Assembly: GCF_002243645.1 (NCBI RefSeq) | Contig: NZ_CP017704.1 | Span: 4,544,001 to 4,608,000, forward strand | DNA: 64,000 bases | Direction: 5' to 3' | Source: Peribacillus simplex NBRC 15720 = DSM 1321 | GTDB lineage: Bacteria > Bacillota > Bacilli > Bacillales > DSM-1321 | Part shown: piece after piece, positions 5,226-63,049 of the stretch | How the letters are laid out: each line of letters begins with the position of its first letter | Position numbering within the stretch: the stretch's first letter is position 1 | The notes under the pieces: model-generated | What the model saw: only the letters and a program-made list of their open reading frames with translations | What the model was told of the DNA's origin: nothing | Database searches by the model: none | Translations under genes and position numbers: made by a program

Positions 5226-5380
5226 GTAAGTCTTGTTGTTACACACATGATTCCCGCTGCCCTTTCGTTTTAAACATGTTCGGAAACGGTTTATGCGGTT
5301 TTAACAGGTAAATTTATTGAATCACGAAGTGGCAATTGTTATGATAGGATTGAAGAGAAAACTTGGAAGGAGCAAATGCC

Positions 5381-5818
5381 ATGAATATGGATTTTAATTT
5401 TTTAATGAACGACGTAGTCAAACAGGCTCGCGATGAGATAAAGACTGCTGGATATACAGAATTGACTACTCCCGAGGAAGTAGAGGAAGTATTTGCACAA
5501 AAAGGAACGACACTTGTTATGGTAAACTCCGTTTGTGGCTGTGCTGGTGGAATAGCTAGACCTGCAGCGGCTCATGCAATCCATAATGATAAACGCCCAG
5601 ATCAGCTTGTAACCGTTTTTGCTGGGCAGGATAAAGAGGCGACGGAGAAAGCCCGTGATTATTTCGAAGGGTATCCGCCATCATCCCCATCATTTGCATT
5701 GCTGAAAGATGGAAAAATCATCACCATGATAGAACGCCATGAAATTGAAGGGCACCACCCGATGTCTGTAGTTGAAAAATTACAAGACTACTTCGATCAA
5801 TATTGCGAAGAAGTGTAA
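5381..5818 (+). CDS. brxB: Bacilliredoxin BrxB (YqiW, YphP/YqiW family)
   Basis: Bacilliredoxins remove bacillithiol from S-bacillithiolated proteins during oxidative stress in the cytoplasm. The 145-residue protein has the thioredoxin-like fold signature and the unusual CGC active site (V51-C52-G53-C54, then AGGIARPAA). [19 protein letters not shown] and [18 protein letters not shown] are highly conserved in YqiW. The in-frame TTG at 5363 has no ribosome binding site, whereas ATG 5381 follows GGAAGGA at a good distance and gives the usual MNMDFN start. It stands alone between the mut operon and the art transporter, matching B. subtilis yqiW next to artPQR. Confidence 0.95.
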
Positions 5819-5833
5819 CCTATAGCGATAAGT

Positions 5834-5857
5834 AAACCCGCCCATTCGGCGGGTTTT
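5834..5857 (+). terminator. First (left) copy of brxB terminator hairpin
   Basis: Stem AAACCCGCC (5834-5842) / GGCGGGTTT (5848-5856) with loop CATTC. The T-tract is weak and interrupted (TTTTAGTTTG). The same hairpin with one loop change recurs at 6356-6378, on the far side of the repeat element. Confidence 0.8.
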
Positions 5858-6355
5858 AGTTTGACGGCAAAATGGGGGTTCGGAGTGCTCTCACCCGAAC
5901 CATGATTTTAAAACAAGACTGGATTATCCTTTATGTTTTTTAATGTTTTAAGAAATCAACTGAATGTTAGGTTTGTTAAAATAGAACGTTGATTTCCACT
6001 CCAGGTACTCGCTTTCCGCGGGCGGTCAGCCCTCGGCGCTCCTTGCGCCTAGGGGGTCTCCCTTGGACACGCATTCCCCCGCAGGAGTCTCGTACCTTCC
6101 TGTCCAATCAACTGGAATGTTTTTTAAAACTTTAGGCAAACTGGATCTTCTTAAATTTGGATGAAACCCTTATTAGATTGAAGAAATTTGCGACACTCCT
6201 GCCGAATAACTGGCTAGCCAAGACCCCGTAGGCGCTTGCGGCGAGAAGGCTTGGCAGACAGTCGGCGGAAAGGGAGTGAATTTCTGAAATTAACTGGAAT
6301 TTTTTTAAGAAAAAACTGTATGCAAACTAGATTTTCTTCTAGTTTGTCCAGTCTG
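5858..6355. repeat. Dispersed palindromic repeat, copy R1 (tandem/compound)
   Basis: This is a ~500-base non-coding element. It opens with AGTTTGACGG and a hairpin (GGTTCGG 5877-5883 / CCGAACC 5895-5901), then an A/T-rich segment shared with the copy at 35622. A GC-rich block at 5988-6112 is bounded by GTTGATT and AATCAAC and is the inverted counterpart of the block at 62523-62645. A second GC-rich block at about 6192-6290 (GGCTAGCCAAGACCCC, GGCGCTTGCGGCGAGAAGG) matches copy R2. It closes with the hairpin CAAACTAGA (6323-6331) / TCTAGTTTG (6338-6346) and CAGTCTG. A decayed version of that closing hairpin near 6135-6160 suggests two modules in tandem. No protein is encoded. Confidence 0.85.
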
Positions 6356-6382
6356 AAACCCGCCCAATCGGCGGGTTTTTTT
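6356..6382 (+). terminator. Second (right) copy of brxB terminator hairpin
   Basis: Stem AAACCCGCC (6356-6364) / GGCGGGTTT (6370-6378), loop CAATC, followed by a long T-run. It is near-identical to the hairpin at 5834 but has the better T-tract. Confidence 0.85.
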
Positions 6383-6523
6383 ATTCATGAATTTGCATAA
6401 GTCAGGAACATTTGGGAAAGAAGATAGATAAGGATGTCGATATATTCCCTTTGGTGAAAAAGCGCGGATCTCAGAAATAAAATTATAGCAATATTCTGAA
6501 AAATGAATCTATTATTTACGTTA

Positions 6524-6551
6524 TTGAATAATTATTAGAGTGTGTTAAAAT
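6524..6551 (+). promoter_or_regulatory. Candidate artP promoter with overlapping ArgR/AhrC-like box
   Basis: A possible sigma-A promoter reads TTGAAT (6524-6529), 16-base spacer, TAAAAT (6546-6551). The -35 lies in TTGAATAATTATTAG, close to the arginine-repressor box (TGAAT, 4 A/T bases, ATTCA). A perfect half site TATGAAT follows at about 6563. Arginine-responsive control fits the art genes but is inferred from the match only. Confidence 0.4.
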
Positions 6552-6643
6552 ACACATTAGTGTATGAATATTAGTTATTCGAAATTTAACTAAATCAAAT
6601 TTAATAACAAGAGAATTGAAAATATCATTTTGGAGGAATAATA

Positions 6644-35596: not shown

Positions 35597-35621
35597 AGAC
35601 GCTTGGGAAACCCAAGCGTCT
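35597..35621. terminator. Left copy of ohrR terminator hairpin
   Basis: Perfect stem AGACGCTTGGG (35597-35607) / CCCAAGCGTCT (35611-35621), loop AAA, but followed by GAGTTTACG, a poor T-tract. Duplicated at 35907 beyond the repeat. Confidence 0.8.
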
Positions 35622-35906
35622 GAGTTTACGACAGGAGGTTCGGATTGGTCTCACCCCGAACCATGATTTTAAAAGAAGACTTGTTTATCCTTTATGTTTT
35701 TTATTTTATATAGAAGAAACTCTCACTAGATTGAAGAAATTGGGAACTCTCCTGACTGGCTAGCCGAGACCCCACAGACGCTTGCGGCGAGGAGGCTTGG
35801 CAGACAGTCGTCGGAAAGGGAGCGAATTTCTAAAATCAACTGGAACGTTTTTTAAATAAAAAACTGCAGACTAAACTCGCTTTTCTTCGAGTTTGTCTGC
35901 AGTCTG
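35622..35906. repeat. Dispersed palindromic repeat, copy R2
   Basis: This is a 285-base non-coding element of the same family as 5858-6355. It opens with GAGTTTACGAC and hairpin GGTTCGG / CCGAACC, then ATGATTTTAAAAGAAGAC and TTTATCCTTTATGTTTTTTA. The GC-rich core is ACTGGCTAGCCGAGACCCC...CGCTTGCGGCGAGGAGGCTT. It closes with the hairpin CTGCAGAC.TAAACTCG (35864-35879) / CGAGTTTGTCTGCAG (35888-35902) and TCTG. It lacks the extra 125-base block present in R1. No coding capacity. It separates the convergent ohrR and ohr genes. Confidence 0.85.
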
Positions 35907-35935
35907 AGACGCTTGGTAACCCCAAGCGTCTTTTT
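35907..35935. terminator. Right copy of ohrR terminator hairpin
   Basis: Stem AGACGCTTGG (35907-35916) / CCAAGCGTCT (35922-35931) with T5. Differs from the left copy at two loop-side positions. Confidence 0.85.
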
Positions 35936-62262: not shown

Positions 62263-62336
62263 CTAAAATATAGGAAAGTCTTTGGAGAACCAATTACAAA
62301 TATACGAGTCGTGAAGGTTAGTTTCAGTTTGTAGAC

Positions 62337-62374
62337 AAGGGTTTCGGAATGGTTTCATTCCGAAACCCTTTTTA
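62337..62374 (+). terminator. Terminator of sodF-like gene
   Basis: Perfect 15-bp stem AAGGGTTTCGGAATG / CATTCCGAAACCCTT around GTTT, then T-run. Confidence 0.9.
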
Positions 62375-62522
62375 AATCAATGGCGCCCTTCATTTTACGA
62401 CGATGGTACCATTTGATCTAAACTAATCATCTCGCTGAAAAAAGCATCTTTATCACCTTAATACTTGTATTTTAAAACAAATAACTGAAGGTAAAAGTTG
62501 TTTTATCTAAAAGTTAAACAAA

Positions 62523-62718
62523 GTTGATTGGAATGGGTGTGCGAGGCTTCTGCGGGAAAAGCCCGTCCAAGGGAGACCTCACAGGCGCAAAGGCGCAGAG
62601 GGCGGACCGCCCGCGGAAAGCGAGTGCCCTACGCTCCAATCAAACGTTGGAGTTTTTACAGACCCTCAAAAAAACTGAAGACAAACTTGATTTTCATCGA
62701 ATTTGTCTTTAGTCTGAC
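62523..62718. repeat. Dispersed palindromic repeat, copy R3
   Basis: A non-coding block opens with GTTGATTGGA and runs through GCTTCTGCGGGAAAAGCCCG, CCAAGGGAGACCTCACAGG and GGCGGACCGCCCGCGGAAAG to TCCAATCAAAC (62645). It is the reverse-orientation homologue of 5988-6112. The tail GAGTTTTTACAGACCC... leads into the closing hairpin AAGACAAA / TTTGTCTT (62678-62708) and AGTCTG as in R1 and R2. Open frames across it are chance. The rest of 62375-62522 shows nothing recognisable. Confidence 0.82.
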
Positions 62719-63049
62719 ACGAGTCATGAAGTTTCGTTTTTTTTTTTTGCCTGAAATTTTGTATCAAGAATTTTTTAGGGAAAATCTGGGAAAGATATGA
62801 AGAGGGAGCAGCAAATTTTATTTGAAAGCGACTTATGATTCTCATTTGGATATTATAATTAGATTGAAAAGGAGATGATATCATCTCACGAAATAATGAG
62901 CATGTGTCTTATTTAAATCCTTGAAATAACATTGGAAATGTGTTAAATATGCTACTTTTAAGTACTATGGGTTTTTAAAAATAATTAATTTATATCAATA
63001 TAAAAACTGTGACCAATTTGTGAACTTAAAAATTATTAAGGTATATTTA
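62719..63049. other. A/T-rich intergenic leader region before ahpC
   Basis: About 330 bases with a T12 run (62738-62749) and strongly A/T-rich sequence. No gene or RNA family recognised; the ahpC promoter with PerR box begins at its right end. Confidence 0.5.

Follow-up and report, generated by a model that had tools for sequence, protein, structure and literature searches.

A non-autonomous IS1182-family element between two copies of a terminator hairpin in Peribacillus simplex, and whole-hairpin duplication within one transposase clade

Results and discussion

R1 lies exactly between two terminator hairpins

The window, meaning the whole 64-kb stretch of Peribacillus simplex DNA analysed here, contains an open reading frame at 5363–5818 (151 aa; brxB is a putative name) that is followed by a hairpin present twice, at 5834–5856 (AAACCCGCCCATTCGGCGGGTTT) and at 6356–6378 (AAACCCGCCCAATCGGCGGGTTT). 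The two copies are 23 bp each with one mismatch in the loop, in agreement with the coordinates and the single difference reported in a preliminary description made from the letters alone. Both sequences occur only once in the window, and hand arithmetic puts the chance of a 24-mer pair with at most one mismatch within 1.2 kb at about 2e-7. The palindromic repeat of about 500 bases that was said to lie exactly between them, here called R1, measures 499 bp (5857–6355) and abuts both hairpins without a gap. The features of the locus are as follows:

5834..5856, + strand: left terminator hairpin, the left target-site duplication, 23 bp; T-tract shortened by R1
5857..6355, + strand: R1, non-autonomous IS1182-family element (MITE), 499 bp; assigned from ends, flanks, genome copies and empty sites
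5857..5876, + strand: decayed left terminal repeat of R1; 5 of 20 mismatches against the insertion sequence (IS), first base T for C
5967..6135, - strand: inverted copy of the repeat from the right end of the IS; 81% identical
6126..6355, + strand: right part of R1; aligns to the final 242 bp of the IS, 67% identical
6342..6355, + strand: right terminal repeat of R1 with a small deletion, from comparison with the IS
6356..6378, + strand: right terminator hairpin, the right target-site duplication; complete T-tract

A terminator scan of 5700–6600 listed two terminator-like sites where shuffles expect 0.9, namely the right hairpin (6355–6379) and a weak site on the opposite strand (6204–6191). 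The left hairpin at 5834–5856 was not listed; R1 cuts its T-tract to TTTT, which matches the earlier remark that the left copy has a broken tract and the right copy a good one. The region 5820–6390 is strongly self-complementary (folding z of -8.0 against 100 of its own shuffles), and R1 looks palindromic because one repeat of about 170–240 bp sits in it twice in opposite orientation. This palindromic repeat, found in both orientations inside R1 (5967–6135 and 6126–6355), also forms the right end of the IS and is abundant in the genome. No open reading frame of 100 aa or more was found inside R1. An Rfam search of the 64-kb window gave no family at gathering score, and a loose threshold applied to 5800–6420 gave 11 weak matches, all below gathering score and mostly to leaders or sRNAs placed over hairpin and T-tract.

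An autonomous partner in the same genome

A full-length IS is present in the same genome as two identical 1752-bp copies (L061, positions 1170–2921, and L062), each with a transposase frame of 455 aa. The transposase scores 468.9 bits against the curated NCBIfam IS1182 model, for which the cut-off is 270, placing the IS in that family, and it has Pfam matches to DDE_Tnp_1_6, DUF772 and DDE_Tnp_1; transposases up to 98% identical occur among relatives in Peribacillus records. Terminal inverted repeats are present at both ends of the IS (CAGTTTGTAGACAAA and CAGACTGTAGACAAA) and recur in decayed form in R1. Each 1752-bp copy is flanked by a perfect duplication, of AAAAGGCCAGACATTGCTGTCTGGCCTTTT in one case and of a different hairpin, 23 bp long, in the other.

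Both halves of R1 match the right-hand noncoding end of this IS: the right 230 bp of R1 are 67% identical to it over 249 aligned columns, and the left end of R1 agrees at 15 of 20 positions. As it has ends in common with the IS but lacks a transposase, R1 is a MITE, and the mobile, non-autonomous element postulated in the preliminary description has thus gained an autonomous IS1182-family partner. The shared ends and the same type of target duplication suggest that the IS transposase would move R1 in trans.

Copies of the element in the genome

At least 69 matches to the R1 region were found in the 5.65-Mb chromosome, with 40 of 107 candidates scored. A 16-base right-end pattern with at most two mismatches found 73 sites, against one for the reversed control; four of these, which are left ends belonging to the IS or to its relatives and were picked up by a pattern that is itself nearly palindromic, were dropped and 69 kept. 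R1 is absent from the 73, as a small deletion has altered its right end. Left ends, paired at no more than 5 of 20 mismatches within 1.9 kb and picked by left-end match alone, were found for 30 of the 69 right ends, giving elements of 169–1752 bp, and the remaining 39 had no passing left end.

The flanks of the 30 paired copies were then compared with each other. A flank match score of at least 7 was reached by 23 copies and by 2 of 868 cross-pairings, which were made between loci separated by more than 5 kb; a score of at least 12 was reached by 16 copies and by none of the 868. The flanking hairpin differs from site to site, and these 23 copies uphold the proposal of a terminator-targeting element that duplicates the hairpin, for which a survey of flanks over all genome copies had been suggested. 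The accompanying expectation, that copies should not lack a flanking duplication, stood for the same 23 and failed for the other seven, in which no clear duplication was found and which we read as decayed. In the first 42 bases past the right end, a folding energy of -8 kcal/mol or lower was found at 43 of the 69 sites compared with 11.7% of dinucleotide shuffles, and a stem of at least nine pairs in the right flanks of 32 of the 69 compared with 14% of shuffles; fold energy was used beside the stem count because nine pairs are too strict for short terminators.

Three copies were seen in the window (at 5.8, 35.6 and 62.3 kb), all with flanks of this kind, the third being diverged. The second and third copies have the following features:

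35597..35621, + strand: left hairpin of the second copy, 25 bp
35622..35906, + strand: second element copy, left boundary set by eye
35907..35931, + strand: right hairpin of the second copy, 25 bp
62304..62324, + strand: left flank of the third copy, diverged duplication
62325..62716, + strand: third element copy, 392 bp
62717..62737, + strand: right flank of the third copy, diverged duplication, with a T-tract behind it

Empty and filled sites in relatives

The gene preceding R1 is present in all 36 genomes of the genus, this one included, and its locus was examined for 30. Nine of these loci (L052–L060) have another intergenic region and were left unscored, so that 21 were comparable. Five of the 21 are element-free with a single hairpin (L033, L038, L043, L045 and L051), 11 have the element between two hairpins (the right copy with point changes in L036, L037 and L041), four are decayed and one is unlike the others (L049). 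The forecast that an empty site should show one hairpin was therefore borne out at all five empty sites, alongside one hairpin per side at the 11 filled ones, and an element-free site with two hairpins, named beforehand as the contrary observation, was seen in none of the genus genomes compared.

On a midpoint-rooted tree of the flanking genes, three of the empty sites (L045, L051 and L043) fall outside the filled group. The empty L038 is nested with three filled rows in a group of four (support 100/100), and the empty L033 stands beside two filled rows (support 80/85). The position of L033 and L038 inside the filled group points to precise loss of the element, leaving one hairpin, or to replacement by an empty allele; a loss would presumably have passed through the hairpin repeats. 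The decayed sites (L046, L047, L048 and L050, from genomes G017, G014, G018 and G030, respectively) carry the same element type behind the same gene and form a separate clade, their element being either an old insertion or a separate second hit on the same terminator. At the R1 site of L034, L036 and L037 (G024, G008 and G006), two or more repeat units lie between the hairpins, indicating that the element expanded in place.

At the site occupied by the IS copy L061, 13 relatives (L213–L218 and L220–L226) have a bare single hairpin, as judged by eye. A further relative (L219, G019) has a single hairpin interrupted by what appears to be a different insertion sequence, so the same terminator has also been hit by other elements. 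Two others (L227 and L228, from G013 and G014) have element-like left ends, AAAAAGGTTGGGAATGACC and AAAAAGGTTCGGAATCGTC, after the hairpin, suggesting that short elements related to it inserted separately at the same terminator. At the site of L067, one relative is element-free with one hairpin (L288) and three have the right end of the element ahead of the hairpin (L283–L285).

Related IS copies across species

A scan of one genome per species, covering 84,980 species, yielded 363 transposase relatives, and the best 80 of the 363, from 13 genus names, were analysed. Both element ends, anchored on the terminal repeats, were found in 77 of the 80, and a duplicated hairpin of 16–35 bp (median 26) flanks 71 of the 80. 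Every one of the 71 duplications has a different sequence and abuts the element ends, and 69 are perfect; none of 1902 between-locus pairings under the same selection reached the score. The nine failures were due to the ends in three cases (L140, L162 and L167) and to the duplication in six (L142, L149, L165, L192, L198 and L199), but when the search was not anchored on the ends, L140 and L142 did show a hairpin duplication and L192 an imperfect one.

The centre of the hairpin is the centre of the duplication in 68 of the 71, symmetric positions of the duplications pair at 86% as compared with 40% in shuffles, and the first and last bases are complementary in 55 of the 71. Since the two centres coincide, duplication length follows the target structure. 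Purines are preferred at the edge of the duplication, with A at position 1 in 59 of the 71, and recognition may therefore involve more than structure.

Distribution within the IS1182 family

Among 149 genomes of the window's phylum, matches were present in 91 and above the cut-off in 24. In a tree of 52 transposases, all 30 rows with hairpin duplication fall in one clade of 34 (support 100/99), two of the 30 being the same IS of this genome. The four clade rows in which no hairpin duplication was seen (L199, L244, L246 and L309) mean that the duplication label must change four times on the tree. A hairpin duplication is seen in none of the 18 sampled rows outside the clade, these being single copies whose element ends are not independently defined, and only the clade was interpreted because long branches lie outside it. 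Whole-hairpin duplication is thus limited to one clade among the sampled rows.

Single loci from the phylum search have a hairpin duplication in 6 of 30 cases (L239–L243 and L254). In a check of multi-copy elements by eye, those of G072 and G174 and one of the G056 types duplicate hairpins, with the exception of one of the seven G072 copies (L272), and no duplicated hairpin was seen in the multi-copy IS1182 members of G124, G151, G050, G038, G130 and G182 or in the second G056 type. Given these members and the count among the single loci, duplication as a behaviour of the whole family was rejected. The clade extends beyond one phylum, since a member on a Rhizobium plasmid is flanked by a perfect hairpin duplication of 19 bp; a Peribacillus plasmid copy has one of 24 bp. 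At L254 (G104) the duplication is an imperfect, G+C-rich hairpin of 35 bp, with ends CAGACTGTCGAAAA. A 39-bp duplication at L265 (G183) has no hairpin at its centre and is accompanied by no matching inverted ends.

Proposed mechanism and alternatives

In a DDE reaction both 3' ends of the element join the two target strands, and repair of the gaps makes the duplication, the length of which is fixed for most DDE transposases by the spacing of the two strand transfers. The length here tracks the hairpin and so suggests that DNA structure is what is recognised. We consider it very likely that R1 is an IS1182-family non-autonomous element inserted in the terminator of the upstream gene, and that the transposase of its clade targets stem-loops and duplicates the whole hairpin.

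The DDE transposase of the clade would recognise the target stem-loop (a terminator) and not a sequence, each element end would be joined to one strand at a 5' foot of the stem-loop, and repair would then leave a full stem-loop on either side; the target-site duplication would thus be the hairpin, which would also set its length. Joining of both ends at the feet is the most likely geometry, and an extruded cruciform would be the simplest reading of the form recognised. Seen from the upstream gene, the first hairpin has lost its T-tract and the second, past the element, forms a complete terminator. Whichever way transcription runs, the U-tract is missing from the hairpin reached first and present on the one beyond the element, which accounts for the broken and good T-tracts; termination should therefore continue beyond the element and, as far as the sequences allow, would be kept after insertion. 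Insertion should cost little because the hairpin beyond the element is a complete terminator, and because the duplication is long the element could later be lost precisely, restoring one hairpin.

On balance, and with less confidence, we favour a broader proposition, that this clade of Bacillota (with one alphaproteobacterial plasmid) reads a DNA stem-loop and joins at its feet, that the fold and not the enzyme sets the duplication length (16–35 bp), and that terminators are a self-renewing safe haven. If this is true, each insertion leaves termination intact, turns one target into two and is exactly reversible by recombination between the hairpin copies. The abundant repeat of these Bacillaceae genomes would then be explained as passengers hidden in terminators at little cost, and annotated double terminators may be insertion scars.

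The same duplication could arise if the target were recognised through transcription, as a paused polymerase or an RNA hairpin, in place of a DNA cruciform. Of the 71 duplications, 69 are preceded by an A-tract or followed by a T-tract and 56 have a gene stop no more than 120 nt away on one side or both, so that nearly all are terminators, which fits such targeting; a left-side gene stop was found at 41 of the 71 as against 26 of 280 control points further left, the control covering the left side only. However, no clear strand bias emerges when the adjacent genes are considered (24 duplications with a gene on the left only, 15 on the right only, 17 on both sides and 15 on neither), a symmetric duplication requires that both strands be read, and terminators may merely be the commonest intergenic hairpins. 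We regard transcription-linked recognition as unlikely, while it fares better than the other alternatives.

Far less probable is an insertion beside the terminator with a short duplication or none, the second hairpin having arisen later through recombination, slippage or gene conversion. Hairpins in general are prone to such events, but perfect duplications in 69 of 71 cases, all abutting the element ends, speak against a later origin, and the two IS copies of this genome, which are recent because they are identical, already carry theirs. The view that the hairpins belong to the element itself, with no duplication of the target, derives some appeal from the R1 locus alone, where element and hairpins look like one unit; it is refuted by hairpins that are specific to their sites, 71 different ones in 71 IS copies, and that are single in empty sites. 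RNA-mediated insertion in the manner of group IIC introns, which also go behind terminators, was rejected because the full-length IS encodes a DDE transposase between terminal inverted repeats and the window has no Rfam family at gathering score.

Comparison with known systems

Group IIC introns insert at terminator hairpins by an RNA-mediated route, behind the stem and without duplication; the R1 clade shares these targets and differs in the other respects. Bacterial MITEs (RUP, Correia elements and others) are short, non-autonomous and moved by the transposase of a related IS, and they have short, fixed target duplications. R1 resembles them in being short and non-autonomous, whereas its family duplicates a hairpin of 16–35 bp. 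For IS1182, ISfinder lists duplications of 0–60 bp, and its curators may have seen single cases.

Within the IS1182 family, the available excerpts for ISCaa15 (PMC3196728) and ISPse1 (PMC3281130), both of the DDE type like the IS of R1, list 4-bp direct repeats. ISEfa7, an IS1182-like element of Enterococcus faecium plasmids, has a transposase that is 54.8% identical and falls inside the clade, and its left end starts CAGACTGTAGACAAAG (by eye); in the one copy examined no hairpin duplication was found, and the second end was not within 450 bp. According to the accessible part of a 2025 paper, IS1182-related transposases act with or without target duplication or deletion, by sequence or by structure (PMC12056078).

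The closest comparison is with IS1272, TnSha1 and TnSha2, IS1182-family elements of staphylococci (Furi 2016, PMC4923244; Wan 2017, PMC5678879). As described in the parts of these two papers available, they target inverted repeats or terminator hairpins of at least 21 bp with no common sequence, often just behind genes, as does the R1 clade (PMC4923244, PMC5678879). In our data the inverted-repeat targets likewise have no sequence consensus, with 71 different hairpins and a purine preference at the edge only. The IS1272 transposase is given there as 548 aa, compared with 455 aa for the IS here. In contrast to the R1 clade, which duplicates the whole hairpin, the staphylococcal elements delete or replace it without target duplication (PMC4923244, PMC5678879), the deletion being partial in the cases of Furi 2016 (PMC4923244). 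Removal of the hairpin without duplication does not describe the R1 sites, where filled sites have two hairpins and empty sites one.

The pathway proposed for IS1272 in the available text of Wan 2017 removes the stem-loop, and duplication of the whole stem-loop is drawn as an alternative, pathway b, for which that text gives no case (PMC5678879). The same source states that palindromic targets were mentioned by Siguier et al. without detailed data (PMC5678879). Our literature search, with most subscription journals outside its reach, found no report of whole-terminator duplication as an observed result. That IS1182-family ISs hit hairpins is thus already known, and whole-hairpin duplication of a length set by the target structure is apparently new. 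The R1 clade supplies the duplicating outcome drawn in the IS1272 model and, since one family gives both deleting and duplicating outcomes, the two modes can be compared.
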